Positions 24,265-62,369 of a stretch of DNA of 64,000 nucleotides are shown here, piece after piece. A program made the translations under genes and the position numbers. Positions within the stretch are counted from its first letter, which is position 1. Each line of letters begins with the position of its first letter. Below the pieces are notes generated by a model, which was given only the letters and a program-made list of their open reading frames with translations, was not told the origin of the DNA and ran no database searches. The stretch is taken from NCBI GenBank assembly GCA_021234155.1, contig JAJEKV010000058.1, positions 2,783,060 through 2,847,059 of the forward strand, in the 5' to 3' direction. The stretch is from Isoetes taiwanensis. Lineage: Eukaryota > Streptophyta > Lycopodiopsida > Isoetales > Isoetaceae.

Positions 24265-26261
24265 TGCGCCTAACGTTTGCCCGATGGAATCGGTTCGATC
24301 TACACACAAGCAACCGCTTCGTTTTTACTTTCGAGGTGTCTTTCGGATTCGTTCATGAAGGCTCCTTTGATTTTGCGATTGCATGTACAAGCAAAACCAC
24401 CGAAGAGGCCCAACGGCTCTTCCACAGGCATCTATCTTTTCTGCATCTCTGCAGAGTTTTTCTTTGAGCTAACATCACTTGGTGCAGAAGTCTTGCACAT
24501 TTTTCAGCTCCAGCAAGCAACAAATATTTCGATTCATCCTTTTGATTCTTCACCGACACTTGCTTGGGATTTATTCTGACATGCTGCACAGATCTGGACA
24601 CCATAAGGTTAAAACCCCCATCAATTTTTGGAGCTTATGCATTTTTATCAGGCAGCCCAGCTCTTTACCTGCAAAAAGGGGTAGGGCCTCTGTTCAATGA
24701 CCCATTCGTGGTAGTAATTTTTTCTGCAAATCATGCATATATCAGTGGCACCGCATCCTTTCACCGAGGATTCTTCTCTGATCCCCACTTCCACAGAAAT
24801 TTAAGCTGCCTGTTATTTAATCCTCAGATATTTTTGCACAATTTGATACAAAGTCATTGGCTTCCTCACGAACCAATTCAAGAACCAATTCAGCGACATC
24901 TTCAAGCTGTCTTGGAGCTGCATAGCCAAACGATATATCATCCATCTCCTGGAAAATTTTAGAGACAATAAGATGCCCTCTTTCCGCAACAAACACCGTT
25001 GTTTTAGTAAAAAAATCCTCGGATTTGGTAAAGCGCTTACTTTATTGCTTTGGCTGCAACCAGACTTCGACACACTTCATCCGCAAGCGTGGCGCAAACA
25101 AAGCATCTGTATTTCCCCGATCCGAAAATTTTTGGCGCCAGTGATCCTACCCTATTTGCCTCACGCTTCATATCTTTGAAGCCACAACACGCTTGATCAA
25201 GCTCGAGCCTTGCATCATTATCACCGAAGCCCACAACATCATCTACGTGGCAACCCACCATTTCCTATCGACCTCTGCCCGGTGCTCGCTTCAAAATAAA
25301 TCTGTCTTCATGGCGGCATCGTGACGGTGGGCACACTAAGTATTCACGGAGTTTTACGTGGCAATAAACCGCCCTCCTTCGCCCGGATGTGATCCCCAAA
25401 GCGACACGGATGCATGGCCTTGAAAATGTCCGAACACTCCGCACTGTTATTGCAACACTCCGCACACATACGGCTTCATGCCATGCGGCCCACCCGAGGG
25501 CAAAGGAATTCTCAAAGGCCCCGGTATTACGGTAACACTTCATCGCGGTGCACGATCTCACCCCGATCACCAAACTTCATCTCCCACGACCTCTTTGCCT
25601 TCCGCGGCTGTTAAGGCGTGGCCTCTTTTCCCTCGGCACCTCACGGCATCATCCAGCTCCCACGGCCCTTCCGGGCATGGCACTCCCTCACCAGGCCCAT
25701 CTGGCGTGGCGCTCGAACCCCTGAGCATCGGAATCTCTTCCGTCCGAGCATGAGCCCCACGCCCATCACGGCGTGGCTTCTCAAATGTTGACCAACAAGC
25801 CCGCCCATCGCGGCGTGGCTTCAAGTCTGCAAAATCTTACCGGGGCGTGCATACGCAAAAAACCTTGCATTAAGCCCGCGGCATGGCCCCGAAGTCTTCA
25901 ATATCTTCGGAGGCGTGAACCCGCGGCCCCGGCATGGCTTCAACATCAAAGACCTCCCGCGGCCTCCTGCATGAACCACGGCCCCCACGGGCGTGGCCTC
26001 CTCAACATCGGATACCTCCGCGGCCCTCACAACATCAAACCCCGCGGCCCATCCCTTGGCGTGGCACATTTCCTTAATGTCAACACATTGTCGCTTTTTC
26101 TTAATCGACAATTTTCTTTCCCGAAAAGAATTCGACACTTGACACTTGAATATTCCACATGGCCCACATTTTTGGTGTTTTTCACCCCTTGTAATGTTGA
26201 AGCCGATATCTAGTCCTACCATTATGCCTTTGGAGGTAAAATTTTATGCACCTATGACTTC
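24262..26261 (+). mobile_element. element B, first copy, interior part 1 (5'-truncated)
   Basis: Aligns with 41530-43540 of the second B copy. Its 5' LTR and first about 630 interior bases are missing. It stops at ATGACTTC (26261), where element C is inserted, and resumes at 39610. No coding sequence is credible: the long frames come from short GC repeats. Confidence 0.8.
25440..26060. repeat. GC-rich minisatellite of element B, first copy
   Basis: Degenerate units around CACGGCGTGGCTTC and CCCACGGCCC repeat throughout. The same tract is in the second B copy (42700-43340). It marks element B and explains the spurious long frames here. Confidence 0.75.
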
Positions 26262-27925
26262 TGTGACGTCCCCTACTCGTATACGGTGCTCTCTCGTCGA
26301 ATACAAATAGGAGTTCCTCCCCATACCACCCATCCATGCCGATCTGGGGGCCCTCCACATATCATCGCAACCGTGATTTGTTCCGAAGTGGGAAGAGTGA
26401 AGGGGTCATTTTACCCTCTCCCTCGGGGCCTACCTAGCTGCGGAAGCGTAAACATACATGTCAGTATATAACATAAGCACATATCCACCTCGAAGGGTGG
26501 TCCATCACATCTGCATAAACAAGGTGAGTACAATACATATGGGGAGTTCTACCCCCAAGGCGGACTCAAGGGATGGTGATCGGCTTGGGTCTCCCGTGAG
26601 TTCATTGGGGACGAAATTCATGGCAATGGATTGGGCTGGCATATGAACATGGCATAGGGTTGTCCACTCCATCCGCCCTCCCCGTGCACACTTTGCGAGT
26701 AGGCTGCCGACCGGGACCAGAGTTCACGGGATGCATAGCCGAAGGGCTATTCACGGGCTTCATCCTCCCGATTCAGATGGGGCGAGGAAGGGATCACTCC
26801 CTCCGAGGTCTACATGCCGACTCAAGGCTAGAGGGGCCTTTGCCCGTATTCGGCCCGAACCCACTTCGAAAGTGTACACCACTTCACTCGGTGTCGAGTC
26901 CATGCCTCACCCGCACTTTCGGTGGTGAGCCATTAGACCCTAGTCACAATGATCCCCTGGTAGGCCTTACACACCCGAGGGATCTTTCAGAGGCGGGACA
27001 TGAACCTCCTTCTTAGCCGGTCCGGCCCCTTCACCCACAACCTTGGTGTGGCTCTTGTACGAGGCCTAATCTATAGTGTGCTAGAGGGCTACTCTAGGAG
27101 CATCTACTACCAAGCTTTTGGGTCTCTACCCCCTTCCCAATACAAGGAGTTCATAGAGATACATCATCCACATACATCCGCGGAAGAACTAAAGAACTAT
27201 ATCTAATCTACATCATAGAGTTAGGTTCTTTAGTTAGAGGTTGGTATCTAGATCTAGAAGGCTGCTATGGGCAATTTAATAGGCTAAACCCCATCGATTC
27301 TATGGTGAAATAGGGTTTAGACTATCTAATTGGCCAAATACCTGATCCTTGAGTGGCTCCTCCTGACCTGAGCTCGACCATCCTGCTGAAACGCTCGAAT
27401 CAAGGGGAAACTAATGGTGCAAACCTCTCAGGCAGAGTCTGGGAGGCGGTTTTGGCTGTTGAGGCAGCCAGAACAGAGTTCTAAAACCCTAGAAACGAAA
27501 ATTGGGCAAGTTAGGGTTTCCCTCCCTTAATAGACAAGGGGTTGGCTAGGGTTTCCAATTATCCCCTTTAGGCATGTGGGATAATTGGTAATGGGCCCAC
27601 TTGCCTTTAATGGCTAGGTGGCAAAATGTGCCCACATGGAAATGTGTGCCCACATTAATGTGTACATTGGAAAATGTGCACATTAATTGCACCTATGGGT
27701 GTGGCCCACTTGGCATCAAGTGACCACATGGAAATGTGTGCCCACATTAATGTGTACATTGGAAAATGTGCACATTAATAGTTGCACATATTTCTGGCAC
27801 GTTGCCCCCTAGGGCTACCCACCTGGCTACACGTTAGCGTACACGTCAGTCGGAGTGGCGTGTACGGCGTGACGATGCGGATAAGATATAGCCCCGGGAC
27901 CGTGATATCGCGTCCGGCATCCACA
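26262..27925 (-). repeat. 3' LTR of element C (1664 bp)
   Basis: Pairs with 37951-39609. Plus-strand ends are TGTGACGTCC (26262) and GGCATCCACA (27925). Near its right side a 48-base block (ATGTGTGCCCACATTAATGT) occurs twice about 91 bases apart (27640 and 27731), as in the other LTR. The two LTRs differ by many small changes at CTG/CAG-type words. Confidence 0.9.
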
Positions 27926-27938
27926 TTCTCCCCACCTT
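27926..27938 (-). other. polypurine tract of element C
   Basis: On the minus strand AAGGTGGGGAGAA lies directly before the LTR start TGTGGATGCC. It primes plus-strand DNA synthesis. Confidence 0.85.
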
Positions 27939-28800
27939 GAAATGATGCTGTCCGCAGCATCGTGGGTCTCCCCACCTTGGGATCGTCCTAACCTGCAATC
28001 AACCTGATGCATACTATAACTACTATAATACTTACACATTTATTAAGATTACCTTAAGGTAATATTTTTAGGACATTATCACGCCATCACATTATGAAAT
28101 AACTTATCAATTCATAACATCATTAAAAGAGATTACTCAATAATTCAGTTAACATGACAATTAAGTTTATCAAAATTAAAATTAACGTCCGAGGTACTTC
28201 TTCATTCCTTGCAACACATTCCAACAAAATTTGTGTTGCAAGTCTTCAGAGTTTCGACCTCCTTGCCCCTCCGGCGCTCTATTGGCTGCTTGATTAGACA
28301 CTACGTTAGTACCATTATAATTATTAATAAAATTTTTGGTTATATGGTGACCACCCCACCTATCTACATGGATGCATGGCTAATCTCCTAGCGTGGGGAA
28401 GAGGGGTGAATCTTCCATTATGGGTGTGGACAAAGACCTATATGCCTATATGCCGCTCATGCCTACACCCTAGTTGCCCAAATGGAGGATAGGTCCTTCC
28501 CCAGATATGGGGCGTGAAGGCCTGATTCCTCCTATCAAAAGCATATATGGGGCTAGAGGTGCTTTTCCTATCGGTGCATTCCTTCATGACCTCCTTTCTC
28601 TCGAGGTCGCTCTGCTTCCGTCGGACAGTAGACTTTCTAATCTACCTTCCACTTCCCAAAGCGGAAACGCGGTCATGCCTACATTGACATTATACCCTAT
28701 GCCTAGAGATCACCGTAGTGGTCTCATCGCCATTAACAACGCATGCGACCCATACCAAGCGTAGGTTGCATGCGTAGATTAATCTTAACTAAACATAGAA
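27939..28800 (-). other. untranslated stretch between integrase stop and polypurine tract
   Basis: No open frame in the element's direction longer than 70 codons and no motif seen. A second GGTGGGGAG-like word lies near 27970. Confidence 0.5.
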
Positions 28801-29004
28801 TTAATCTACACAAATCGACATGCCTGAGCCGATTTCTTCGGAGATGACCTTGCCGTCCCATTGCTCCATAAACTGTGGGTACTGCTTCACTAAATCTTTC
28901 TTAAGTACCCATGTCGCGTCTTCCACTGGTAAGTGTCTCCACTTGACCAAATACTGGAGGAATTCTGATCTCCTCGTTTTCTTGAAAGCTTTATCAAGAA
29001 TCAA
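28801..29004 (-). CDS. chromodomain at the C-terminus of the element C integrase
   Basis: A 67-codon frame reads ILDKAFKKTRRSEFLQYLVK followed by WRHLPVEDATWV. This is a canonical chromodomain (YLVKW and ATW aromatic positions kept), the module that steers chromovirus integration to chromatin with modified H3. It abuts the GPF/Y part of the integrase (29005) and is probably fused to it in the intact element. The acidic and aromatic cage positions look intact. Confidence 0.85.
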   Translation of the reverse strand: MILDKAFKKTRRSEFLQYLVKWRHLPVEDATWVLKKDLVKQYPQFMEQWDGKVISEEIGSGMSICVD

Positions 29005-30370
29005 TTACGAACTATTTCCATTTTGCTCCTCGCCATTTCCAACAACGTTGGAGAGTCCAAGACTTCCGTGCGGATTTGGAGTGTGCTTCTTCAACAAACT
29101 CACGTGGAAGACCTTATGAATCTTTAGGTGTGCTGGCAAGTCTAGCTTGTAGGATTGATTACCTACTCTCTTGACTATTCTGAAAGGTCCAGCCCACCTT
29201 GGAGCAAGCTTCTTGCAATTCCCGATTCTGAGCTTCGCCTGCTTCACCTTGATCTTGAGCCATACATCATCTCCAACTTTGAACTCTCGGGACGTTCGAT
29301 GCTTGTCGGCGATGCTTTTCTCGACTTCTTCTTCTTGTAGCAAATACCCTCGAACTTCTTCCACAAGCCGCCGCATATCGGGCAACATCTCTGGCTACTT
29401 GAAACTTCCACTTTTGACACGGGGTTGTGCCAACTGTGCGAGTTAGGCACTGATAGCCGTAATTAATCATAAACGGCGACATTTGGGATGATTCCTGCTT
29501 GGTGCTATTGTAGGCAAATTCCACCAAATGAATAAATTCTTCCCACATACCTTGCTTATTCCGGACATAGTTTCTGTGAGCATGTCCTCTAAAATCCTTG
29601 TTGGTCCGGCCTGCTTTGGCCATCCGTCGGGGATGATATGTCGTGCTCATGGATAACTTGGTCCGAATCGTCAGAAAGAGGTCTTGCGAGGAAGGCACTC
29701 ATGAACTTCGGATCCCCCGGGAGATAATCTCCCTTGGCATGCCATGAAGCCGAAAATCTCTTTGGTGAAGAGCTTCGCTATATCCATAGCCGTATCTGTG
29801 GTCCTGCAAAAGGCAAAAATGTGCCATTTTTCGACAACTTGTCGACTACTACCATCAACGATCTTTCCCTCTTCACGGTCCTTGGGAGTCCCGTGGATGA
29901 AATCCATGCTAATCACCTCCCCACTTAGCGTTTGGCACCGCCAATGGCTCTAATGCTCACGGAATTGGCGAAGTTGCTTTCGCTTCGCCGTCTGGCCGAC
30001 ATAACCGGCATTCTCGATGTAGCGAGCTACTTGCTTCTTCATTCCTGGCCAATAATAGGCTGCCAAGACTTTGAAATATGTTTTCATGAATCCCGCATGG
30101 CCAGCTATTGGGTGTTTTGTCGCGTGTCGTGGAGGATCAATTTCCTTACACCGATGATTCGCACGCACAACTTGTTCTTATGGTATAACAGTTGCCTTCC
30201 TTCTTATAATGTTTAAAGGCTTCCCGCTCCTTATCCTTCTAGCCTCTCTAGAGAGGCTTGCCCATACTTCCTTGAAATCCACGTCCGTTGGCAAGGACTC
30301 TTCAATCTTCTTACCAAAGTCGCTGGAGAGCGTTGAAATTGCATTGCAATGCACTCTAGTTGTCAGGGGA
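29005..30370 (-). pseudogene. element C integrase
   Basis: N to C on the minus strand: zinc-binding region with KHPIAGHAGFMKTY and YYWPGMKKQVARYIEN (30168-29950), the core with MDFIHG and AKLFTKEIF (29916-29671), EFIHLVEFAYNST (29698-29267 frame), and the GPF/Y module KLAPRWAGPFRIVKRV with VFHVSLLKK (29388-29005). Both Cys of the HHCC finger are lost as read: NAGYVGQTAK stands where NCxxCQTAK is expected. At least one loss is a CTGC to CGGC change of the kind seen all over this region. The core is split over frames, so the copy is inactive as read. Confidence 0.85.
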
Positions 30371-30860
30371 TGCCTTGAAAGCGCATCCGCTACCACATTG
30401 AGCTTCCCTGGCTTGTAGACTATATCAAAGTCATACTCTTCAAGGAACTCCATCCACCTTCTCTGCCTCAAAGTTGAGGTGTGGTTCGCGGAATACATAC
30501 CGGAGGCTCGATGGTGCATCCAACTGGAACTTCCTTCCCAAAAGGTAGTGCCTCCAAATTCTTAATGCCACGACAACCGCAAGCAATTCTCGATGGTGGG
30601 TGGGGTAGCGTGTTCAAGGCCGTTCATCTTCCTAGAATCATACGCTACCACACGCTCTTCTTGCATGAGGACTGCACCTGTAGCTATCTTACTCGCGTCT
30701 GTTGCTACAAGCTTATCTTTCTCCGGGTCCGGCAGGGTTAAGACTGGGGCGGTTGTTAAAGCTTCCTTCAACAATTCAAACCACAGCTTGGGGCTTTCTT
30801 GTGCCAATGCTCGCCCAATCTTTCACTTTCTCCCCCCTCGTCCAAGTCACAGAACGGGCC
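30371..30860 (-). pseudogene. element C RNase H
   Basis: Frame 30807-30562 reads FELLKEALTTAPVLTLPDP, then VATDASKIATGAVLMQ with the catalytic TDAS, then VVAYDSRKMNGLE. The 30519-30178 frame continues with RRWMEFLEEYDFDIVYKPG and NVVADALSRHP, the end of the domain. One frameshift lies between the two parts, at the PTIE block. Confidence 0.9.
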
Positions 30861-31700
30861 GCTATCTTAGCAAAGTTCTTCACGAACTTCTCAGTACCGC
30901 TGGTAAGTGAAAAACTTCCGACTTCATGCACATTCTTCTGGCCCGGGCCAATGAATGACGGCTTCAATCTTGGCGAGGATCCGGCCGAGATTCCTTCCTC
31001 GAGATCACATGACCCATGTATTCCACCTTCCCCTGTTGGCGACACTGACAACTTAGGCGCATAACCGGTGCCTCTTCAACTTCTCTAGCACTCTCCTTAA
31101 GTGTTATGCGTGCTCTTCAAGGGATCTGCTATACACCAAAATGTCATCAAAGAATACAATCACAAAGGTGTCTAAAAACTCCCGAAGATGTCGTTCATGA
31201 GCCTCATGAATGTCGGCGAGGGGCATTCGATAAGCCCGAAGGCATTACCGTGAACTCATAATGCCCATACCGCTTATGGCGGTCTTATGGATATCTTCTT
31301 CCTTTTATCCCGATCCGATGATAACCTCGACCTTAAGTCGATTTTGGAGAAGACCTTTGCACCTTGGAGTTGATCCATCAAATCGTCTGATCTGGGGAGC
31401 GCGTACTTGTTCTTAATGGTGTGCTTGTGCAACTGCCTATAGTCTATGCACATTCTTAAACCGCCATCCTTCTTCTTTACAAAGAGAATGGGCGCCCCAA
31501 ATGGCGAGACACTAGGTCTAATGAAGCCTAGGTCGAAAGCAACTCCTGCAATTGCTTCTTCAAATTGTCCAACTCCTGCGTCGTCATTCTCAGATGGAGC
31601 CTTTACTTGTCGGCTTTGCTCCCGGTTCGAAAAAGCTATCTCACACTCGACTCCCTATACGGCGGAAGCCGCTTGATCTCATCCGAAAGAGATCATGGAA
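30861..31700 (-). pseudogene. element C reverse transcriptase
   Basis: Blocks in order on the minus strand: [13 protein letters not shown] (about 31590), [20 protein letters not shown] (31500-31440), [30 protein letters not shown], then VIVFFDDILVYSRSLEEH (about 31165-31110) with the catalytic Asp-Asp. Between them the DLRSGYHQI and FGLSNAP blocks are shifted by small changes such as CAG read as CGG. Domain identity is certain; activity is not possible as read. Confidence 0.9.
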
Positions 31701-32029
31701 CTCCGTGATCAGCCGAAGCTATTTGCTTCGCAACTTGCTGAGCACTCGGTCTTCTTTGCTTTCCTCCGCCTTCGTGCTCGTCAATCTCAAGCTTGAAGAT
31801 GTATGCCACCCGTGCTCGCTCTTGATGCACTTGAACAGCGCTTAGAAGACATACACCGCATGATGGGAACAACTTCTTTACCCGTGATCTCAATGATCTT
31901 GCCGCCGGGTGTTGGGAAGGTCACCTTCCGCTTTCCCAATCGATAATGGCCCCCGCTGGTCCAAGGTACTCCATTCCTATGATCAGGTCGTATTTGCCAA
32001 TGCCCATTACTTCTGCTCCCATCCGGATC

Positions 32030-32371
32030 TTAATCCCCAAAGTCGATGTCGGTTAATTCCCTTGTCACCGCCAGTGCGCCTTTTTCGCACCACTTGCTAA
32101 GACAAATGTGCCTTGGCTTTGACTTTAGTGGTTTCAACTTCAACATTTGAACCATTCTGGGGGATGCAAAGTTATGGCTACTTCCTGAGTCTATCAAGAC
32201 TATGAAGGACTTGGCCTTGGCCTTCCCTACTGTGGAAATTACTTTATACCGCTCTCTCTCTTGCTCTGTATCTATTGCGGCAAAGATATGACACTCACCA
32301 CAATGTAGTCGCGGGCTTCCTCGCCGCCGCCGCATCCAGTGTCCCAATCTCCCAACTCGCTTAGGCCGCAC
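32030..32371 (-). pseudogene. element C aspartic protease region
   Basis: Contains KSFIVLIDSGSSHNFAS, the retroviral-type aspartic protease active site (DSG). The upstream part includes CGECHIF, a possible leftover of a zinc knuckle. Frame is broken from gag and from the reverse transcriptase. Confidence 0.85.
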
Positions 32372-32399
32372 TCATGACGTAGGGGCGCTTCATTATGCC

Positions 32400-33656
32400 C
32401 TATGGCCTTTATGAAGCACCAAAGCAAAGCCGCTTTTCTATGCACTCGTCTCTTTTCCTTGGGCATCGCCTCGCAAAAGGATCGCCTTTGCTTTGGGAGT
32501 AGTTTGACCCCTCCTGCTTGTCCTTGAAGGACACCTGCTTCTTCTCCTGCTGTTTCCCCTGGTTGCCACCATATGGGGCTCTAGCTGGACCTGGACTGGC
32601 TGCTCTAGGGCTATAGCTTCCTGTCGCCTTGCCTTTATCCTGGAAATGCTGCTGCCTCTGCCCGCTATTCTGAGGTCCCGTCCCTTGCAAGCTTATAGCC
32701 TTGGACTCTGCTTCTAATACTGTCTTAGGGTTTATTGCCCTCACAAGCTTGCGGATCTCCTCATTCAGCCCCTCAATATAGCTTTCTCCTGCATGCTTCT
32801 CACCCAATTTCGCACATGACCTCAACCTCATGAATTCCTCTGTATATACGGGCGGTTGTTGCCTTGATGTAACCTGTAGAACTGCTGCATCATACTAGAC
32901 ATGTTCCCTCGGGACGTAATGGCATTTGAAGGCTTTAGCAAACTTCCTGAACTTACACAAGCATCCCTGCTCAAGCCATGTGCCTTTGCATAACCCTTCC
33001 ACCAAATCCGTGCGGCTCCTTTCAAGTTGGGTCATTGCCACTCTTCCTTTGTCTTTATCCTTCATGCCATAAGCATTGCCGTGACTCACTCATTTCGTCT
33101 AGCCTAGCCATGCCTCTGCCTCCAATCCCGACTGTGTTCTCCCCGAGAATCGTTCCAGATTCGGCCTTCCATACATTGCCCAATCGCGGAATCTACCTTC
33201 TTCCCGGTAGTCGAGGCCCCGTGTCTCTTTTGTCGCCCATCCGGGGTGTTCCTCCGCCTTCCTCTTCGGTGTTCCTTTGCCTTGCGCCCTGCTCGGTCCT
33301 GGCCTGCTTCTTCTTCTTCCTGAGTCGGAGTCGACTCGAGCTTGAGTCTGAGGAGTCCGAGCTGGGGATCTTCTTCTCTTGCTCCTCTTCTTGTCCCTTC
33401 CTGTTTTTCCGCTGATGCTTGTGGCGGTTGAGCATTGCCCACCCAACCCGCTCTTCCCCGCTTGTGCGGCTAATGAGCCTTTATCTCTGCCAAGGTCCGG
33501 CCCTCATCTCGGGATATCTCTTCCTCTGGGGGTCATGGGTTCTATATCTTCAAATAGGTTCCTTGCGGGGGGTCTGGGCGGGTCTGCTTCTTCCCTAAGG
33601 TCTTGGCGTTGTCGTTCCGAGCCTAGGGCCTCTAACCGCATACACAAGTAATTCAT
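32400..33656 (-). pseudogene. element C gag
   Basis: Probable start ATG 33656 (NYLCMRLEALGSERQRQD). Then comes a charged low-complexity part, then the Ty3 gag core: VAMTQLKGAARIWWKGYAK, AFKCHYVPRE and QFYRLHQGN. The 32831-32409 frame follows with ESYIEGLNEEIRKLVRAINP and a Lys/Gln-rich tail. At least three frameshifts. An AT-rich TATATAATATAT stretch about 110 bases upstream (near 33770) could be a third internal promoter. Confidence 0.85.
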
Positions 33657-33816
33657 GGCTATATGGTTAGTTTTCCTTGTTCTCTTGCATTGTTTATGTT
33701 TGTTGGTATAGTTGTGGGGCAAAAATACATCAACAAAACATTTAAAGTGCAATGATTTATATTCATATATTATATAATATTTTAGTACAAAAGGTCTCCC
33801 CGGATCAAGAGTCTAA

Positions 33817-35315
33817 CTAATCTTGAAATCGCCATTTACACGGGTTGTCCTCAAGGAACTTCTTAACTTGGGCCGTTCCTACCGAATGACCCAAGTTCCT
33901 GATGATGCTTGCTGACAAGCCGCCCTGCAAGGCTCTCACCAGCTCTTCCACCCTTCGGTCGGATGTAAGGGCTGCGGTGACCGCCAATCTCGCCTGACGT
34001 CGATGGGGTATGGCAAAGTCGAAGAGGTCAAGTGCCATTGCCCTCTTGATCGTGACAAATGAAGTCGACATTTGGCGCTATGCGAGCATGCCCGCCAAGC
34101 CCGAGAGTGCAATCGCATGAATACTCCTTCTTCACCTCTAGGGCTGAACTTGCGGTGGATTACCGCTATTCTCCCATCTAGCGGCAACGGCAGGTAGTAC
34201 CTCAGGGACCTGTCATTGTGCGTCGCTGAAGCCTCTCCGCTTGTTTGGCCTCCAGCCCTATGCCTCCCGGCGTATTCGTCGACTTCTATTTCGGTGAGGT
34301 CCCGGTAGTCTTCAATTGTGGAGTCGACCGCCTTTGAGGTCGATTCCCCGCTCCTCTTGATGGAGGTGGTGTCAAGGCCTCGGCATTAAAATGCTTGTGG
34401 TCTTCCCACGGATCCCCATCTGTTCCCTGGAGGGCGAGGGAACTCCTCCTCTGCTGGCGACTCTCGCCGTCCATCATTTGCCTGATGCTTGGCTGTAGGC
34501 CCGGATGTCCTGAAGTCGACTCTCTGTGTAAGTGTCGGCTTCCCCTCACTTGGGAGCGGGAAAGTCCGAGGCTCCCCTGACGATGAAGTCGCCCAAGTCC
34601 GACTGCCGTAGCTGGTGGAGTAGTTCGGTCCAATGAGCTCCCCTCTCTGCACTCGAAGGTTCGATGTCACTGAGGAGTAAATACTCCTCCGCTGATGATG
34701 ATTGGGGCTAGGCTTGTGATGCCTAGCCCGAGTGGGGAGCAATCGATGTTCACCGGCTCGCTCAAAGTTCGCCATCTCCCTGCTACGCTTGTTGTCGCTC
34801 CTCCTCCTCGAGTCGAGTTCGTACTTATTGTCGCTTGGACTCCTCTTCTTCTTCGCCTTCTCCTTCCCTCGCTCTTGCGATATTGCAAACGATCCGCTCT
34901 TCTTCAAGATCGCTATGGGGTCCACCTCCATCGGAGGGATAGAGGTTGCCCCCATTGGGTTTTCGGCACGGTGGGATAAAAAAATGGCTAAGGCCGCGGT
35001 GTAGGAGAAGTACTTGGTCCTGTTGGCTGTAAGGACCATGTAATCTGGCAGCCTTTGCGCTTTGTTGGTTAGGTACTTGGCGATGTTGGGGACATCCTCC
35101 AAGGCTGCTTGAAGGGATGGGCGGGGGACAAAATATCCTATGCAAGGGGGAACCTGAACAAGGGAGGGTCCTACCCTAGCTTGAAACTCTGCTAGCACTT
35201 GCCTCAGTATCTTTGGGTTGCATTTAGCGTGGCTTGATATCAATTTCTTTCCCAAAGACTTGAAGATGTCGCTGACATCCGCCTCGGCAGATGGGCAATC
35301 GGCTACTGCACTCAT
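33817..35315 (-). CDS. ORF-X, accessory gene of element C, unknown function
   Basis: ATG 35315 opens 309 codons (to 34386). In shifted frames the sequence keeps coding character to a stop at 33817 (YLPLPLDGRIAVIHRKFSPR near 34190-34130, then LVRALQGGLSASIIRNLG near 33940-33880), so the original may have been about 500 residues. The N-terminal part (residues 15-110) is well mixed and probably folded (LRQVLAEFQARVGPSLVQVP, NIAKYLTNKAQRLPDYMVL). The middle is strongly basic (GKEKAKKKRS, RRRSDNKRSRE) and could hold nuclear signals. I recognise no family. It has its own TATA box and the same paired palindromes as the H3-like gene, so the two are likely co-regulated. It is no gag, since gag follows separately. 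Confidence 0.6.
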
Positions 35316-35338
35316 CGCTTGAAGTCAAGCCGGGCCAT
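35312..35338 (-). other. eight-codon upstream frame overlapping the ORF-X start
   Basis: ATG 35338 gives MARLDFKR and stops at TGA within ATGA shared with the ORF-X start. The overlap would allow reinitiation. Alternatively this ATG was once the true start and is out of frame now. Confidence 0.4.
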
Positions 35339-35448
35339 TGATCTAGCGAAGAAGGAGTAACGGACGGATGTAGAAGCTACCGGGAGCCGGAAGATCGCCT
35401 AAGCAAAGGAGAGCAAACTTGCGAGGTGCCAAATGAAAAATGATGGAT

Positions 35449-35458
35449 CTATTTATAG
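35449..35458 (-). promoter_or_regulatory. TATA box of ORF-X
   Basis: CTATAAATAG on the minus strand, 134 bases upstream of the ORF-X ATG. The same ten bases precede the H3-like gene (37408-37399). Confidence 0.7.
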
Positions 35459-35634
35459 AAAAGTGGAAAACCCTAATTTTTGGATGACCTAGAATTCACT
35501 GGAGTTGGGCGATTCTGACCTATTAGGAGGTGCAATTGAGTGTTTGGAGGCTAATTTTGGTTTAAAGCATGCTAAGAACAACTAATGAACCTATTGCAGA
35601 AACCGAGATCATTTGGTGAAGAAAATGGTCGGAG

Positions 35635-35703
35635 GTCTCACACGCTATGCCTGCAGACCGATTTTGAGAATCTCATTTTTACGTCTCCGGCGACGTGTGA
35701 GAC
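35635..35703. repeat. promoter palindrome, unit 1 (ORF-X proximal)
   Basis: 69 bp starting GTCTCACACG and ending CGACGTGTGAGAC; the inner part carries TTTTGAGAATCTCATTTTT. It folds almost end to end. The partner copy lies about 200 bp further upstream of ORF-X. Confidence 0.85.
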
Positions 35704-35832
35704 ATGGGTTCTAATTGGGCTAGACCTACTCAATTTGGGTGATCTAAGGTCAGAATTCCACTAAACTCGTTGAGTTAGGCGAATTGACCCCTTATTTGGT
35801 CGATTTGGAGCTGTTTTGGGCACTTTTTTATG

Positions 35833-35899
35833 GTCTCACACGTTGCGCCCAGCCCGAAAATGAGATTCTCATTTTCTGTCCTGGCGCGACGTGTGAGAC
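35833..35899. repeat. promoter palindrome, unit 2 (ORF-X distal)
   Basis: 67 bp, the best-preserved copy. Outer arms GTCTCACACG and CGTGTGAGAC, middle GCGCC and GGCGC, inner GAAAATGAGA and TCTCATTTTC around one central T. Only a few bases fail to pair. Confidence 0.9.
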
Positions 35900-36044
35900 A
35901 TCGTCTCAATTTTGCTCAAAGCTCCAATTTAACTAAAACAAAAGCTAGAAATCAATATCTTAACTTATTTAAACAAGATTTGACGCTTTATCTACACAAA
36001 AATTCTTTATATTAACAAAAATGTTCATTATTTACAAAAAGGTT

Positions 36045-37297
36045 TCAAGGGCGTTCTCCCTTGATGTGCCTGGCAAGATACATATCCTGCCTCATGAGGG
36101 TAACCCTCTTCATGTGCACTGTGCAGGCCGTTGAATCTTCAAAATGCTGCACTATCTTTGCCTCTGCTGCCTCCTGTAGGCACAGCAACATTTCGTCGGT
36201 TACTCGCATGTCCGTGTTGTATTCCTGCATGACTTCACGGACTAAGCGCTGGAACGGCGCCCGGGGGATCAAGAGTCCGTAACTCTTCTGGAAGTGGCGG
36301 ATCTCCTTGAGAGCTCTGTCCTCCAACTTCTTCTTCTTGCTCCGCTTCTTCCCTGGTGCTCGGGGAGGCTTGGGCCTGGGTGGCGGTGGTTTCAAGGTCT
36401 GACTTCTTGTCGGATGTCCGCCTTCGATTGTTCTTACCCTGTGCTCCTGATAGTAGGCATTGTATGCCTCCCACTTCACCATGTACGCGTTGTGCTCCTT
36501 GATCTTCTTCTGATAGACCTTGACCGGGTCTATCACGTACGCCTCCCGTTGTGGTCGCGGGGCTTTAACCCTATCCCACGTTGGAAAAGGTGGGGGCTTC
36601 GGTGTCTGCCCGGACTGATCTTCCTCAGGTGCCACCTGCTCGGGTACCTCCTTCTCCACGGGCGGGGGTTTTGAAGAGCTCGCCCCCTCCGGGTTGGGGA
36701 CGTAATCGTCGTCCGAATCGTCGGTGGAAGGCGGGGTCTCTTCGCCTGATGGTTCGTTGATGACGGGCCCTACCGCTCGCTTCCCGACCTTCACAAGTTT
36801 CCTGCCGCCTGCCTTGATGGCTTTGGCCTTTCTCTTCTTTGGCCCGGGGTTGTGTTGAGCCGCGGTCTTCCCGACTTTAGTCCCTCTGCTCCGTGGGCTC
36901 TTTGGCTTCATACTTGCTGATGAAGCGTGCAAGATCGGCTTCCTCATCCGGGGTGAGCTTCGGCGGCTGCTGCTCTTCTCTCCCTTGCTCCTCCTGCATG
37001 TGGGTCTCAGTCTGGTGTTGCTCCTCGGCTATTGGCTGCCTACATGCGCTCCCTTTACTCCTCAAGCTCCTTCCCTCCTCCTCTCAGCGATCTCCTCGAG
37101 GATTTGATGCATGATGTCCGTCGATCGTCGCCTATGATCTCGGTGTGGTCGCTCCGTCCGATCCCCGTGATCCTCGCCGAAGAAGATTCGCCTTCAGGAA
37201 AAGGCGTTCTGAAGGACTCTCTGAAGAGCGCATCACCGGCGCCGGAGGATTCGCCTCCCACGAGGCTTCCGAAAGCGGTTTGTTTTGTACGGGCCAT
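36045..37297 (-). CDS. retrotransposon-encoded histone H3-like protein
   Basis: The second of two adjacent ATGs (37297) gives MARTKQTA, identical to the H3 tail through residue 7 with Lys4. A first frame runs to 37055, a second carries KLTPDEEADLARFISKYEAK (ending 36877), and a third is open for 300 codons (36947-36045). The parts are probably one protein of about 415 residues broken by two frameshifts. The middle is disordered, basic then acidic-proline-rich (KKRKAKAIKAGG, STDDSDDDY). The last 90 residues (36317-36048) form an H3 fold: LKEIRHFQKS, PFQRLVREVMQEYNTDMR, LQEAAEAK, HFED, C-x2-H-x2-RVT, LARHIKGERP. It ends exactly where H3 ends, with no CenH3-type loop-1 insertion. H3 contacts Cys110, His113, Arg116, Asp123, and DNA-binding Arg69, Arg72, Arg83 are kept; Lys9 and Lys27 contexts are not. 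It has no family precedent that I know of in chromoviruses. Confidence 0.85.
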
Positions 37298-37398
37298 CAT
37301 CCGCCGGTTCGTCGACGGAGCTAAGCGCCCGGAAGATCGCCTTTGGCGAACACGAGCAAGCTTCTAAGGGAAGAACGCGAAATGGGAGGGGTCTAGGT

Positions 37399-37408
37399 CT
37401 ATTTATAG
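37399..37408 (-). promoter_or_regulatory. TATA box of the H3-like gene
   Basis: CTATAAATAG on the minus strand, about 102 bases before ATG 37297, giving a short leader. It is far downstream of the LTR end (37951), so it would give a separate internal transcript. Confidence 0.7.
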
Positions 37409-37481
37409 GTGTCAATTTTAGGTCAACTTTTAAACTACCTTTTGGGGTGCTTAAAACATCTAAAACACCTAATTAAGCAAG

Positions 37482-37545
37482 GTCTCACACCTTGCCCAGC
37501 CCGATTTTGAAAAAGTCATTTCCTGTCCCGGCGCGACGTGGAGAC
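37482..37545. repeat. promoter palindrome, unit 3 (H3-like proximal)
   Basis: 64 bp, GTCTCACACCTTGCCCAGCC to CGGCGCGACGTGGAGAC. Same family as units 1, 2 and 4; the outer right arm has lost a TG. Confidence 0.85.
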
Positions 37546-37679
37546 ATGGTGGGACCCACTACCAAATTTTGTACTTTTGAACATGTAACATGCTAATTCT
37601 ACTGATTCTTAGCTCTAATTTAGAATTATCAAGTTATTTTACCGCAATTTACAACTTTTTGGTGTGTTTAAATTTGAAT

Positions 37680-37745
37680 GTCTCACACGCTATTGCCAAA
37701 AAAATGAAAATCTCATTTCCTCACCCTTGGCGCGACGTGTGAGAC
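37680..37745. repeat. promoter palindrome, unit 4 (H3-like distal)
   Basis: 66 bp, GTCTCACACGC to GGCGCGACGTGTGAGAC, inner AATGAAAATCTCATTTCC. It lies about 200 bp upstream of unit 3, the same spacing as units 1 and 2. Confidence 0.85.
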
Positions 37746-37935
37746 CACCTCCTTTTTGATGTTGGCTCACCAATTTTAGTCTTCTTTACGCTTTTATCCA
37801 TTTTAATCATTACTAGCTTAGATAAACTACAAAAAATGAGAAAAAAATTTTCCCATTTTTCGAGGTTTAAGGATCCTATCAGTTAGTACTCATCGGGAAC
37901 ATGGCCGATGCTTTGCTCTTGGTCTCCAAGAACAT

Positions 37936-37947
37936 GGCTCGATACCA
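37936..37947 (-). other. primer-binding site of element C
   Basis: TGGTATCGAGCC, three bases after the 5' LTR on the minus strand. It differs from the initiator tRNA-Met site TGGTATCAGAGCC by one missing base. Confidence 0.75.
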
Positions 37948-37950
37948 CCG

Positions 37951-39609
37951 TGGACGCTCCCTACTCGTGATACCTGGTGCTCTCACCGAATACAAACAGA
38001 GTTCCTCCCCATACCAGCTCCATGCCGATATGGGGCCCTCCACATATCATCAATGCAACCGCGGATCGGGTTCCAGTGGGAAGAGTGAAGGGGTCATTTT
38101 ACCCCGCCTCCCTCGGGGCCTACCTAGTCTGCGAAGCGTAAACATACATGTCAAGATATAACATAAGCACATATCCACCTCGAAGGGTGGTCCATCACAT
38201 CTCACATAAACAAGGTGAGTACAATACATATGGGGAGTTCTACCCAAGGCTGGACTCAAGGGGATGACTGGCGGCTTGGTCTCGGAGTTCATTGCGGATG
38301 TAATTCATGGCAATGGATTGGGCATATGAACATGGCATAGGGTTGTCCACTCCATCCGCCCCTCCCATGCACACTTTGCGAGTAGGCTGCTGCCGACGTC
38401 GGGACTGTAGCCTCACGGGATGCATAGCCGAGCAAGGGCTATTCCCGGCTTCATCCTCCCAGTTCCGATGGGGGGGCAGAAGGGATCACTCCCTCCAGAG
38501 GTCTACATGCCGACTCAAGGTGACTAGAGGGCCACCGCCTGTGATTCGAAACCCACTGGAAAGTGTACACCACTTCACGGTGTCGAGTCCATGCCTCACC
38601 CGCACTCGGTGGTGAGCCATTAGACCCAGTCACAATGATCCCCCGGTAGGCCTTACACATCGGAGGATCTCTCGAGCTCGGGACATGAACCTCCTTCTTA
38701 GCCGGGCCCCGCCCCTTCACCACAACCCGGTGTGGCTCTTGTACACAGCCGAATCTATAGTGTGCTAGAGAGGCTACTCTAGGGAGCATCTACTACCAAG
38801 CTTTAGGTCTCTACCCCTTCCCAATACAAGGAGTTCATAGAGATACATCATCCACATACATCATGAAAAGAACTAAAGAACTATATCTAATCTACATCAT
38901 AGAGTTAGGTTCTTTAGTTAGAGGTTGGTATCTAGAGATCTAGAAGGCTGCTATGGGCAATTTAATAGGCTAAACCTACCGATTCTATGACCCAAATAGG
39001 GTTTAGACTATCTAATTGGCCAAATACCGATCCTTGAGTGGCTCCTCCCCGACCCGAGCTCGACCATCCTGGAAACGCCGAATCAAGGGGAAACTAATGG
39101 TGCAAACCTCTCGCAGAAGTCCGGAGGTGGTTTTGGTCATTGAGGCAGCCGCAACAGCAGTTCTAAAACCCTAGAAACGAAAAATTGGGCAAGTTAGGGT
39201 TTCCTCCCTTAATAGACAAGGGGTTGGCTAGGGTTTCCAATTATCCCCTTTAGGCATGTGGGATAATTGGTAATGGGCCCACTTGCCTTTAATGGCTAGG
39301 TGGCAAAATGTGCCCACATGGAAATGTGTGCCCACATTAATGTGTACATTGGAAAATGTGCACATTAATTGCACCTATGGGTGTGGCCCACTTGGCACCA
39401 AGTGACCACATGGAAATGTGTGCCCACATTAATGTGTACATTGGAAAATGTGCACATTAATATGCACATATTTCTGGCACGTTGCCCCCTAGGGCTACCC
39501 ACCTGGCTACACGTTAGCGCACCGTCGCCACCGGAGTGGCGTGGTACGCGCGTGATGAGGTAAGATAAGATATGCGCCCCGGGACCGTATATCGCCCCGA
39601 ACGTCCACA
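37951..39609 (-). repeat. 5' LTR of element C (about 1659 bp)
   Basis: Homologous to 26262-27925 throughout. The right end CGTCCACA is followed by target copy ACTTC (39610-39614). The left end reads TGGACGCTCC where the partner has TGTGACGTCC, so the last bases are altered. Confidence 0.9.
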
Positions 39610-40450
39610 ACTTCAAACATCACGGCCCAACGGCGTGAGTTCAACAATCTGTCACGACCCCTCAAGGCGTGATTTCAAGCACAACTTTCAATCCACTTTT
39701 TACGCAAGCAGCATCTGGAGCATATTTTTGGCACATTTTGGGGGACGCCTCATCTTTTGCCCGATTCTTAGATCTGCTTTGCACCTTTGTACCAACAAAT
39801 TTCAAGTTCCCGCAATGGCGTGAAGATGAATTCTCCTTCAGCCCCTTAGACATCAACCTCACATGACCACATGGCGTGTGTGCCAATTTCAACAATTTCT
39901 CTTTGGTGTCAACTTTGTCAAGTTCAACATTTTGATCAACCACATCCGTCCCATAATACATGGCGGTTGAGCCTCGCTCAAGTTCAACAAATGGCGTGAA
40001 GATGACTTAGGGCCTTCCGCCTTTCAATTTCAACTCCTTCAAGTTCAATTATCTGCTCAAACTCTTTCCAAGTTCAAAGACATGGCGTGAAGATGACTTA
40101 GGGCCTTCCGCCCCTTCGACAATTTTGTTTCTCATTTTTGTTCAACTCATTACACGACACTTTGATTGGCGCATGTATTCGGAGGTAAGTGGCAAGCTCT
40201 ATGAGAAGTGGTGACAGCCTTCTCAACATTAGATTCGACTTCTATGGAATTAAAGGAGCTTGTGGCAAGCTCAAGAGAAGTGGTGATGACCTTCTCAACC
40301 TCTCATGATTTCTCATACTTCATCGACATTTGCATTTTGGGTCAAGAATTTTCTACACATTATCATTATTTCCCCTCACTTTGGACAACATTGTAAATGT
40401 TTAACCCGATGTTATAAAGGTTCTACATAGTTTGATGTGGTGGGGGGGAG
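39610..40450 (+). mobile_element. element B, first copy, interior part 2
   Basis: Continues the B interior interrupted at 26261 and matches 43535-44378. It contains two or three copies of the unit ATGGCGTGAAGATGACTTAG (about 39960-40110) and ends in the polypurine tract GGTGGGGGGGAG just before the shared LTR. Confidence 0.85.
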
Positions 40451-40897
40451 TGTTAGCCCTTTGGGCTAAACATATGTATGAGTGGCATAGGCCACATGTA
40501 TTTATCACATTGGACCACTTGATCTAGGGCCCAGATTTAGCCCACATATGTGGTAGGTGGCATAGGCCACATGTATTTGTCATATTGGACCCCACAATCT
40601 ATGGCCCAAATTTAGCCTAGATCTGTGGATGGTGAGATGTCAGTTAGGGTTAGGGTTTTGCTCTACTATTTAGAGGGAGCATTTCCTCTCATTGTTTAGG
40701 TTTTTGCTCACGTTTTGGAGCACCTCCTTTTGGAGCATCAATATGATTCTGTTTTGTTCATTCTTTGTTTTGTTCTTGTTCTTGGAGTTTCTTCCCACCT
40801 TCTTTTGTTGATCCATGAGCATTTATGGCAGCCTTGTGGCATCCGACAGTCATGGACTGCTGCTGCAAGGTGATGCCAAGAACCCCAAACATCAACA
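40451..40897 (+). repeat. element B LTR shared by the two copies
   Basis: 447 bp. Contains a tandem duplication of a GGCATAGGCCACATGTATTT block. It acts as the 3' end of copy one and the 5' end of copy two. Confidence 0.9.
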
Positions 40898-40898
40898 C

Positions 40899-40916
40899 TG
40901 GCGCCTCATGCCGGGG
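40899..40916 (+). other. primer-binding-site-like sequence of element B
   Basis: TGGCGCCTCATGCCGGGG, one base after the LTR. It resembles the TGGCGCC-type primer sites of plant Tat/Athila gypsy elements, different from the tRNA-Met type of A and C. Confidence 0.6.
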
Positions 40917-42699
40917 TCTCTTGGGCTCATGATCACTCTCTTGTTTTTTATTTCAAGCATCTCCAAAAGTTTTCAAGAAAAAATTTGGTTCTACATCGAC
41001 ACTGTCTTCAATCCTTATCTCTGCTATATCTGCCCACGTTTTTCAAAAAAGGGGCGAACTAAGATTCTTATTTATCACATTTGGGGGTTATCATCCAGCG
41101 TGTTTTTGCTGTCCATACTCTGTTCTGTGTAAACGTTCAAGTCAGGAGCATATATTTGTTCTACAAGCCAGGAGCATATATTTGTTCCATTTATTTAGGT
41201 TCAGCATCACACAATTTATTTCTTTCTATCGTGTGTGCTCACATTTACGCCATCACATTTCTTCTGCGACATGATTGCCACAGGCGGTACAGTCGTGTTT
41301 TTTTGGGTGCAGACACAACCAACACCAAATCTTGGTTCAATTTCGGCATAATAACATCGCATCGATTGGACTTTCACTCCTCTGAGTTCTATTCCTTACT
41401 ATTTTTTATGCAGTTCACCGGTTCCAGCGCATATTATCAACCAATTTTGGGGTTTTTTTGACACAGTTCTAGCCAGACCCAATGCTGCTGACTCACAGTT
41501 CTCCTTTATAGTTGCTACGCATCTTGATGGAATCGTGTTCCAGTCTACACACAAGCAACCGTTTCGTTTTTACTCGAGGTGTCTTTCGGATTCAGCAGAA
41601 GGCTCCTTGATTTTGCAGTTGCATGGACAAGCAAACCACCTGAAGAGGCCCAACGGCTCTTCCACGGGCATCTATCTTTTCTGCATCTCTGCAGAGTTTT
41701 TCTTTGAGCTAACATCACTTGGTGCAGAAGTCTTGCACATTTTTCAGCTCCAGCAAGCAACAAATATTTCGATTCGTCCTTTTGATTCTTCACCGACACT
41801 TGCTTAGGATTTATTCTGACATGCTGCACAGATCAAGACACCATAAGGTTAAAACCCCCATCAATTTTTGGAGCTTATGCATTTTTCTCAAGTAGCCCAG
41901 CTCTTTACCTGCAAACAAGGGCCGGTTCGGGCCTCTGTTCAATGACCCATTCGTGGTAGTAATTTTTGCCACAAATCATGCATATATCAGTGGCACCGCA
42001 TCCTTTCACCGAGGATTCTTCTCTGATCCCCACTTCCACAGAATTTTAAGCTGCCTATTATTTAAACCTCAGATGTTTTTGCACAATTTGATACAAAGTC
42101 ATTGGCTTCCTCACGAACCAACTCCATGGCTTCCTCACGAACCAACTCAAGAACCAATTCAGCAACATCTTCAAGCCGTCTTGGAGCTGCATCGCCAAAC
42201 GATATATCATCCATCTCCTGGAAAATTTTAGAGACAATAAGATGCCCTCTTTCTGCAACAAACACTGTTTCAGCTTAGTAAAATCCTCTGGATTTGGTAA
42301 AGCATTGCACTTTGTTGCTTTGGCTGCAACCAGGACTTCTGCACACTTCATCTGCAAGCGTAGCAGCAAACAAAGCATCTGTATTTCCCCTGCATCCAAA
42401 ATTTTTTAGCGCCCAGCAGCAATCTACCATATTTGCCTCACGCTTCATATCTTTGAAGCCACAACACAGCAGTCAAGCTCGGCCCTGCATCATTATCTGC
42501 AAGCCCACAACATCATCTCTGTGGCAACCCACCATTTCCTATCGACCTCTGCAGATGCTCTGCTTCAAAATAAATCTGTCTTCATGAGCGGCATCAGCAG
42601 CAGTGGCACACTAAGTATTCACCGGAGTTTTCTGTGGCAATAAACTGCCCTCCTTCGCCAGATGTGATCCCTTAAGCAGCACAGATGCATGGCCTTGAA

Positions 42700-43340
42700 A
42701 AATGTCCAATACTCCACGGCCTGTTGCAACACTCACGGCGTCATACGACTTCATGCCATGCGCCCACGAGGGCAAAGGAATTCTCAAAGGCCCCACGGTA
42801 TTACGGTAACACTTCATCACGGCGGTACTTTTGATCTCACGCATCACCAAAACTTCATCTCCACGGCCTCTTTGCCTTCCGCGGCTGTCGGGCGGGCCTC
42901 TTCTCCCTCGGCACCTCACGGCATCGCCGAGACTCCCGGCCCTTCCGGGCGTGGCCTCCTCACCACGGCCCATCCCGGCGTGGCGCTCGAGAACCCGGAG
43001 CATCGGAATCTCTTCCGTCGAGCATCCAGCCCCCGGGCCCATCACGGTGTGGCTTCTCAAATGTTAAACCAACAAGCCCGCGGCCATCACGGCGTGGCTT
43101 CCAAATCTGCAAAATCTTACCCGGGCGTGCATCACGCAAAACCAACATTGAAGCCCGGCGTGGCCGAGTCTTCAATATCTTCCAGGCGTGAACCACGGCC
43201 CCGTGGCTTCAACATCAAAGACCTCGCAGGCGTGGCCTGCATGAACCACGGCCCCACGGCGTGGCCTCAACATAAGATACCTCACGGCCCTCACGACATC
43301 AAACCCCACGGCCCATCCCTTGACGTGGCACATTTCCTTA
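42700..43340. repeat. GC-rich minisatellite of element B, second copy
   Basis: Units around CACGGCGTGGC and CACGGCCC, partner of the tract at 25440-26060. The long open frames across it are repeat-driven. Confidence 0.75.
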
Positions 43341-44378
43341 ATGTCAACACATTGTCAGGCTTTTCTTAACGACAATTTTCTTTCCTAGAAAGAATTCGAC
43401 ACTTGACACTTGAATATTCCACATGGCCCACATTTTTGGTGTTTTTCACCCCTTGTAATGTTGAAGCCGTTTTTTCACATACCAGAATATCTAGTCCTAC
43501 CATTATGCCTTTGGAGGTAAAATTTTATGCACCTATGACTTCAAACATCACGGCCCAACGGCGTGAGTTCAACAATCTGTCACGGCCCCTCAAGGCGTGA
43601 TTTCAAGCACAACTTTCAATCCACTTTTTACGCAAGCAGCATCTGGAGCATATTTTTGGCACATTTTGGGGGACGCCTCATCTTTTGCCCGATTCTTAGA
43701 TATGCTTTGCACCTTTGTACCAACAAATTTCAAGTTCCTGCAATGGCGTGAAGATGAATTACGCCTTTTGCCAGTACATCAACCTCACATGGCCACATGG
43801 CGTGTGCAGGCCAATTTCAACAATTTCTCTTTGGTGTCAACTTTGTCAAGTTCAACATTTTGATCAACCACATCCGTCCATAATACATGGCGGTTGAGCC
43901 TCGTTCAAGTTCAACAAATGGCGTGAAGATGACTTAGGGCCTTCCGCCCCTTCAATTTCAACTCCTTCAAGTTCAATTATCTGTTCAAACTCTTTCAAGT
44001 TCAGCACATGGCGTGAAGATGACTTAGGGCCTTCCGCCCCTTCGACAATTTTTGTTTCTCATTTTTGTTCAACTCATTACACGACACTTTGATTGGCGCA
44101 TGTATTCGGAGCTAAGTGGCAAGCTCTATGAGAAGTGGTGACAGCCTTCTCAACATTAGATTCGACTTCTATGGAATTAAAGGAGCTTGTGGCAAGCTCA
44201 AGAGAAGTGGTGACAGCCTTCTCAACCTCTCATGATTTCTGTACTTCATATACATTTGCATTTTTGGGTCAAGAATTTTCGGCGACATTATCATTATTTC
44301 CCCTCACTTTGGCCACTGTTGTAAATGTTTAACCTGATGTTATAAAGGTTCTACATAGTTTGGTGTGGTGGGGGGGAG

Positions 44379-44799
44379 TGTTAGCCCTTTGGGCTAAACA
44401 TATGTATGAGTGGCATAGGCCACATGTATTTATCACATTGGACCACTTGATCTAGGGCCCAGATTTAGCCCACATATGTGGTAGGTGGCATAGGCCACAT
44501 CATCTCACCGTCCACAGATCTAGGCTAAATCTGGGCCATAGATTGTGGGGTCTAGGGTTTTGCTCTACTATTTAGAGGGAGCATTTCCTCTCATTGTTTA
44601 GGTTTTTGCTCACGTTTTGGAGCACCTCCTTTTGGAGCATCAATATGATTCTGTTTTGTTCATTCTTTGTTTTGTTCTTGTTCTTGGAGTTTCTTCCCAC
44701 CTTCTTTTGTTGATCCATGAGCATTTGTGGCAGCCCTGTGGCATCCGACAGTCATGGACTGCTGCTGCAAGGTGATGCCAAGAACCCCAAACATCAACA
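44379..44799 (+). repeat. 3' LTR of element B, with internal micro-inversion
   Basis: 421 bp. Same as 40451-40897 except that 44501-44550 is the reverse complement of 40590-40639 and short flanking pieces are missing. Confidence 0.9.
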
Positions 44800-50784: not shown

Positions 50785-50877
50785 TGAAGTTAGCTACAAA
50801 TAAATCAAAGGACCCCCTGAAATGACCAACCAAATCCCATTTTCTGTCATATTTATCAGATTGCTTCCTTTTGTGTG

Positions 50878-62060: not shown

Positions 62061-62369
62061 AGACCATTGCACGGACTCTTAATCAAATAGATAAATCCTA
62101 AGTACAGAGCATTACACGAGATTTTGCAAAATGAGAAGAAAAGACAACAGAAAATTAAAATGAAAATAATGAAGGAATGAGAATATCTTGATAACTGAGT
62201 GTGGAAAACAACATGATCTTGCTAAACGCAGAGATCATAGGGAAACAAGAAAGAATGTTGAGTGGTCTTCTGAATGTTGAGCGATCTAGGGCCTCTATAG
62301 CTTATCTTTCTAATCCTATATTTTCATAGGCAGGCGCTTAATTGGGCGCTAACCTAGGCGCCCTTTCGT

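Follow-up and report, generated by a model that had tools for sequence, protein, structure and literature searches.

The window, as we call the whole 64,000-nucleotide stretch of Isoetes taiwanensis DNA analysed, harbours on its minus strand an LTR retrotransposon that contains a gene for a histone H3-like protein (Table 1). The element exhibits the features of a chromovirus: an LTR pair flanked by a target site duplication (TSD), a tRNA primer binding site, which we take to be of the initiator-tRNA-Met type, and pol domains that follow the order PR-RT-RNaseH-IN in Pfam searches, with a chromodomain at the C-terminal end of the integrase. In this decayed copy the PR and RT pieces score below the curated Pfam cut-offs, and the H2C2, RNase H and integrase SH3 domains above them. 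A paralogous repeat in the same window, at 43530, provides the empty site without the element. With 104 gap columns set aside, the two LTRs share 94.5% identity (K2P 0.057; 89.3% by BLAST, with gaps counted), and with plant substitution rates of 4e-9 to 1.3e-8 their divergence dates the insertion to roughly 2-7 million years ago. The insertion sits within one copy (24283-26261 plus 39610-40899) of a roughly 3.3-kb repeat, a second copy of which follows at 41526-44801, and an outer repeat pair (22447-23664 and 46145-47676) lies around it. Elsewhere in the window, two long ORFs (50332-52368 on the minus strand and 62358-64000 on the plus strand) have, by eye, the look of non-LTR retrotransposon proteins; among them are a 496-aa RT-like end and an endonuclease-like ORF at the window edge, also recognised by eye.

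Table 1. Coordinates of the H3-carrying retrotransposon and its parts in the window
Feature	Position	Strand	Evidence
LTR retrotransposon, chromodomain Ty3 type, bearing H3-like gene; 13,348 bp	26262..39609	-	LTR pair, TSD, empty site, pol domains
TSD ACTTC, left	26257..26261	.	single ACTTC in uninterrupted paralogous repeat at 43530
TSD ACTTC, right	39610..39614	.	5-bp duplication flanking element
5' LTR	37949..39609	-	alignment to 3' LTR
3' LTR	26262..27925	-	alignment to 5' LTR
Primer binding site TGGTATCGAGCC	37936..37947	-	sequence; TGGTATCAGAGC in 18/20 loci
H3-like gene, broken in window copy	36045..37300	-	three frames; single open frame in 13/38 distinct copies
90-residue H3 fold (H3 residues 46-135)	36048..36317	-	Pfam Histone 5.4e-25; PDB H3 chains E 1e-26
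Conserved insert block, 34-residue helix at low confidence	36426..36527	-	copy alignment, single-sequence AlphaFold2
67-nt hairpin directly 3' of H3 gene	35833..35899	-	RNA folding, recurrence in other loci
ORF2 region, between H3 gene and gag, frameshifted in window copy	33817..35324	-	DNA match in 19/20 loci
gag region	32409..33503	-	Ty3_capsid match E 0.019, below cut-off
Protease piece	32030..32368	-	RVP_2 6.5e-4, just under cut-off
Reverse transcriptase piece	31274..31651	-	RVT_1 1.8e-4, under curated cut-off
RNase H piece	30562..30819	-	RT_RNaseH_2 2.4e-17
Integrase zinc-binding domain	29950..30174	-	Integrase_H2C2 8.4e-10
Integrase C-terminal SH3-like domain	29005..29391	-	SH3_Tf2-1 6.8e-23
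Chromodomain, C-terminal end of integrase	28801..29001	-	Chromo 1.8e-10, 41 bits, cut-off 25.1

A preliminary description of this DNA had attributed an H3-like gene to a chromovirus and placed it between primer binding site (37936-37947) and gag, on the strand of the element; the element parts listed in Table 1 and the family-wide occurrence of the gene bear this out. The gene is built of the H3 tail start ARTKQTARK, about 300 further residues and a full-length H3 fold, the short contiguous N-terminal tail of H3 (about 45 residues) being absent. It had been presented as a single gene, which is true of other copies, where one frame covers it, but not of the window copy: here each of the three parts, tail (37055-37300), middle (36877-37065) and fold (36045-36947), is read in a frame of its own, and the tail start MARTKQTA, at 37297, is out of frame with the fold. 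The ORF at 36045-36947 (minus strand) matches the Pfam Histone family with an E-value of 1e-26 (94 bits against a cut-off of 26.4). Its last 90 residues align without gaps to solved H3 structures, as had been proposed; in an H3.3 chain of the PDB, query residues 2-89 pair with residues 48-135 over 88 ungapped positions (E = 9.6e-27). In this alignment loop 1 has the canonical H3 length first assigned to it, and the C-terminal end is likewise canonical. The fold is about 50% identical to host H3 and 47-50% identical to H3. At H3 position 114 the window copy has a methionine, against an alanine in 36 of 38 copies. With its H3 fold and divergent long N-terminal part the protein resembles CENH3, an assignment that we rejected, since CENH3 has a lengthened loop 1 and a non-canonical tail as opposed to the canonical loop 1 length and ARTKQTARK start of the Isoetes protein. 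Of 181 PDB matches, 60 were listed, and these carry names of H3 or of a plain histone domain; CENP-A is not among the 60.

The insert between tail and fold is basic in some stretches and acidic in others, and it includes a conserved block. Its presence and length agree with the preliminary description, which had called it disordered throughout; this may not apply to the whole insert, the conserved block being modelled as a helix at low confidence. One strongly basic stretch could, by inspection, be a candidate nuclear signal. AlphaFold2 models of monomers have low confidence (pLDDT of 50 for the fold with 16 H3-containing proteins, and of 53.5 for 300 residues as a single sequence). The hairpin directly 3' of the gene is related to two weaker ones, at 35632-35704 and, within the leader, at 37481-37549 (minus strand). 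Hairpin-like repeats with a GTCTCACACGTCGCGCC-type stem are found on both flanks of the gene (35632-35704, 35833-35899, 37481-37549 and 37706-37765, minus strand). On folding these four pieces, the strongest reached -39.2 kcal/mol (z -7.95) and the others exhibited z-scores of -5.23, -1.19 and -1.25. Stretches related to these hairpins occur again in other loci.

The gene recurs throughout the genome of I. taiwanensis. All 150 of the best matches scored, out of 9103 first-look candidates in that genome, cover the fold (the window's own match included), and by table count 39 of them are listed with frames open over 400 codons or more, the match itself containing a stop in one case. Absence of the gene from other copies, which the preliminary description had named as fatal to its claim, is excluded by these matches. 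We gathered 53 loci, 50 of them in the window family; these reduce to 38 distinct copies once the 12 long loci (out of 20) that repeat places among the first 30 are discounted. Thirteen of the 38 are open from the tail motif to the end, with tail and fold in one frame, a figure that is not a genome-wide rate: seven come from the first 30 (best fold matches) and six from eight added copies chosen for open frames of 424-488 codons. Locus L045 is likewise open, but its tail start is changed. DNA matches over the 20 loci of about 10 kb identified an upstream LTR in 19, the H3-like gene in 20, and ORF2, gag and PR in 19 each. All five are present and colinear in 18 of these loci, on many contigs; the exceptions are L035, without LTR, and L033, without ORF2 onward. 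The primer site sequence TGGTATCAGAGC is missing from L035 and L046. ORF2, with an acidic middle, forms an open frame of 507-508 codons in L048 and L050; neither has a Pfam match, and against the PDB the frame of L048 obtains no E-value below 1.8. The gag-pol frame of L048 is 1203 aa long.

Outside the family, the insert alone (residues 14-300 of L003) has no relative among 2456 candidates, and a scan of viral contigs, which may omit the window's own genome, found none. In a protein search with 8000 candidates scored and 120 of 2214 listed, the three proteins that outscored ordinary H3 (P0001-P0003) are fused or repeated ordinary H3 and were rejected as relatives. The gene belongs to the element family and is not one chance capture; nor was a host gene of the same build, which would have pointed to such a capture, seen among the matches read, a minority of all matches. 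Host genomes do contain H3 variants, and the gene might in principle be such a variant with a long tail, merely flanked by the element or spread by segmental duplication. The colinear order of LTR, leader, H3, ORF2, gag and PR in 18 of 20 loci, and the fact that the window copy is part of an insertion with flanking TSDs and a known empty site, render this extremely improbable.

The protein is under strong purifying selection, because copies differ mostly at silent sites. Across the 13 full-frame copies (one of which, L047, was kept in with part of its insert in a shifted frame), the mean pairwise dN/dS is 0.167 for the whole ORF, 0.204 for the insert, 0.026 for the fold and 0.036 for the tail, the last value being biased by the choice of copies by tail motif. 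Both the fold and the whole ORF have dN below dS in each of the 78 pairs; the insert does so in 76 of them and the tail in 71. Variable sites of the fold in these copies number 15, 7 and 63 at the three codon positions. A motif-free alignment of the tail (24 of 38 copies) gave 20, 2 and 64 minority letters at the respective positions. In the 20 long loci dN/dS is 0.02 for the fold (20 loci), 0.18 for the insert (20), 0.26 for RT (18), 0.29 for PR (18), 0.42-0.46 for pieces of ORF2 (19), 0.45 for RNase H (16), 0.48 for gag (19) and 0.57 for its N-terminal piece (14), a comparison in which the fold dN is lowered by the ranking of copies by fold identity, and of some by open frame, and the pol and gag ratios are raised by partly decayed frames, the non-H3 pieces often containing stops. 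Because of this ranking by fold identity, we modelled the choice of the best 150 of 9103: in this rough estimate, which assumes independent copies, the observed fold dN of 0.012-0.017 would arise from a true dN/dS of about 0.07-0.09, still below the 0.26 of RT. Allowing for this ascertainment effect, no other protein part of the element that we tested is as well kept as the fold.

These values bear on the idea that H3 was captured once and is carried without use, like the RIP-dead copies in hAT elements of Pseudocercospora fijiensis. Such a passenger would fit the many broken copies, the window's among them, and the known capture of H3 by hAT elements. It is nevertheless very improbable, since fold, tail and insert all have dN/dS ratios far below 1 (mean dS about 0.5-0.95), 39 of the scored matches are listed with long open frames, and the ascertainment model argues against an artefact of copy picking.

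H4 has not been amplified in a similar way. A genome search with an H4 query gave 69 candidates and 42 matches; full genes, at 98-99%, account for 16 of these matches and weak pieces for the remainder. A search of the genome for the Histone family returned 8705 first-look candidates; of the 150 scored, 15 reached 164-165 bits (profile positions 2-122) and 135 reached 144-155 bits. Three of the 150 were read. L051 is an ordinary 136-residue H3, and L052 and L053 are frames of 486 and 456 codons with an H3 part at the end that shares about 77% and 72% identity, respectively, with L051. These two constitute a second H3 fusion family (L052:198-1655, plus strand; L053:13-1380, minus strand), in which an N-terminal part of about 340 residues precedes an H3 with a partial tail. 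Their N-terminal parts are related (31% over 297 residues), and that of L052 has no relative among 8000 candidates scored. Frames like L052 occur at many places (93 matches from 88 scored of 13045 candidates), and no L052-like stretch is present in the window or in the other gathered loci except L053. In a tree of 90 columns and 24 rows, with midpoint root and a bootstrap that had not settled, the nine rows of the window family separate from the remainder with support of 100/100, and L052 and L053 form a pair (89/91) among host H3 and other H3 rows. Position 77 is Glu in host H3, L052, L053 and the window family, and Asp in the other twelve H3 rows; this single residue is consistent with capture of H3 from the Isoetes host lineage. 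Since the fusion points and the remaining tail parts differ, two captures in this genome are suggested; alternatively, one capture may have been followed by rebuilding.

Residues kept in the H3-like family comprise A1-K9 of the tail and R69, R72, R83, C110, H113, K115, R116, T118, D123, L126 and I130 (H3 numbering). Cys110, His113, Arg116 and Asp123, presumably the residues of the H3-H3' bundle, are all retained, in agreement with the preliminary description. Changed are S10 (to P), the tail sites beyond it, R63P, L65A, F84V, L103H and K122Q, positions that we take to be DNA or H4 contacts in the last five cases, as well as E87 and L89-L90, presumably the variant-chaperone patch. The tail start is nearly constant, 19 of 24 aligned starts being MARTKQTARKP followed by R or S. 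As judged from sequence, this pattern would fit a protein that pairs with H4 and with itself and is handled differently by chaperones and silencing enzymes.

We lean towards the reading that the H3 of the element is made, pairs with host H4 and enters nucleosomes or H3-H4 complexes, altering the silencing of element DNA. A chromodomain LTR retrotransposon lineage in a lycophyte would have acquired a host H3 coding sequence and installed it after the primer site, ahead of all other genes. The first nine tail residues and the fold would have been kept, and the remaining tail swapped for about 300 new residues. The protein would be made early from genomic RNA, enter the nucleus, pair with host H4 and become part of nucleosomes or H3-H4 complexes formed on DNA of the element itself. 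In that setting the altered tail of the protein, with the K4 and K9 sites kept and S10 and beyond lost, would change how host silencing reads the chromatin, to the benefit of the element. The fold, the tail, the gene position, the family-wide presence, the low dN/dS of the fold, the bundle residues and the unamplified H4 speak for this reading. The poor AlphaFold2 models and the changes at presumed contact residues (R63P, L65A, F84V, L103H, K122Q) speak against it, as does the insert, a 300-residue insertion in the tail being unusual for a deposited H3. Entry into nucleosomes, already proposed in the preliminary description, is plausible.

A nearly unchanged tail start, with the remaining tail lost, would also be expected of a decoy, in which ARTKQTARK mimics the substrate of H3K4/K9 enzymes or readers, or the fold occupies H3 chaperones, so that host silencing is weakened and entry into nucleosomes is unneeded. 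The retention of C110, H113, R116, L126 and I130, which we take to be ASF1-side residues, would suit this mode of action, whereas a pure tail mimic would need no fold better conserved than RT; we regard a decoy as possible, if on the unlikely side. Rather unlikely, in our estimate, is a role in packaging, in which the protein, alone or with host H4, would coat the nucleic acid (cDNA or genomic RNA) of virus-like particles or of the pre-integration complex. The gene lies upstream of gag and would be on genomic RNA, and the insert offers basic stretches and a conserved block, but one would not expect such a protein to keep a canonical H3 tail start. The integrase chromodomain reads methylated H3K9 in some chromoviruses. 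An element that makes both an H3 with a K9 site and a chromodomain might therefore hold a reader and its mark, the chromatin marked by its H3 being where new copies are sent or shielded; we consider this pairing doubtful. Were it real, the presence of a second, differently built H3 fusion family in the genome would suggest that it was of benefit more than once.

An extra ORF in the place of the Isoetes H3 gene is present in Ogre elements, whose ORF1 lies upstream of gag. Additional ORFs of plant LTR retrotransposons, comparable as extra genes, are mostly located between pol and the 3' LTR according to a review (PMC7264820), in contrast to the position between primer site and gag seen here; the word 'histone' is absent from its main text. 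H3-like (H3L) genes are carried by hAT DNA transposons in Pyrenophora tritici-repentis (26 copies; PMC3538342) and in P. fijiensis and its relatives (784 copies, those of P. fijiensis being RIP-inactivated; PMC6710886). These mobile elements multiply an H3-like coding sequence as the Isoetes element does, but they are DNA transposons, whereas the Isoetes gene resides in a plant LTR retrotransposon, has an insert of about 300 residues and is under selection at the protein level. We rejected an origin of the Isoetes gene as hAT-transduplicated H3L, since it lies in an LTR element with pol and not within hAT terminal inverted repeats.

Viral histones, the subject of a review (PMC9145170), offer further parallels. 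Bracovirus H4, a viral core histone with an extended tail that enters host nucleosomes, is a single core histone with altered tail encoded by a foreign genome, like the H3 of the Isoetes element, from which it differs in being an H4 with extended tail from a DNA virus. Orf1 of the nudivirus HzNV likewise has a long uncharacterised N-terminal part with histone folds at the end; it is an H4-H3-like doublet of 1111 residues from a DNA virus, and the review's passage on it mentions no H3 tail start. The main text of this review contains no word starting with retrotransposon, retrovirus or retroelement, and words beginning with 'histone' are absent from the main texts of the I. taiwanensis (PMC8566536) and I. 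sinensis (PMC10541799) genome papers. Among the matches listed from open-licence literature, there was no report of a histone gene carried by an LTR element. The earlier statement that no such chromovirus had been described stands within that literature, in which the fungal H3-carrying hAT transposons, unmentioned at the time, are in print. What is new here is the architecture with the insert, the location in a retroelement and the selection on the protein; H3 in fungal hAT elements and viral histones were already known.

I. taiwanensis thus possesses a chromodomain Ty3-type LTR retrotransposon with its own H3-like gene, kept by selection, and the element probably uses the protein. With the independent capture of H3 by fungal DNA transposons as a parallel, H3 may be a recurrent prize for mobile elements. 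For annotation, most of the 8705 first-look Histone candidates in this genome, few of which were read, are probably not host genes. Hosts silence mobile elements through marks on histone H3, and a selected H3 encoded by an LTR element would be a direct counter-move. The Isoetes element supplies a natural H3 with a tail rebuilt around K4 and K9, which would make it testable whether mobile elements can alter the nucleosomes that they occupy.
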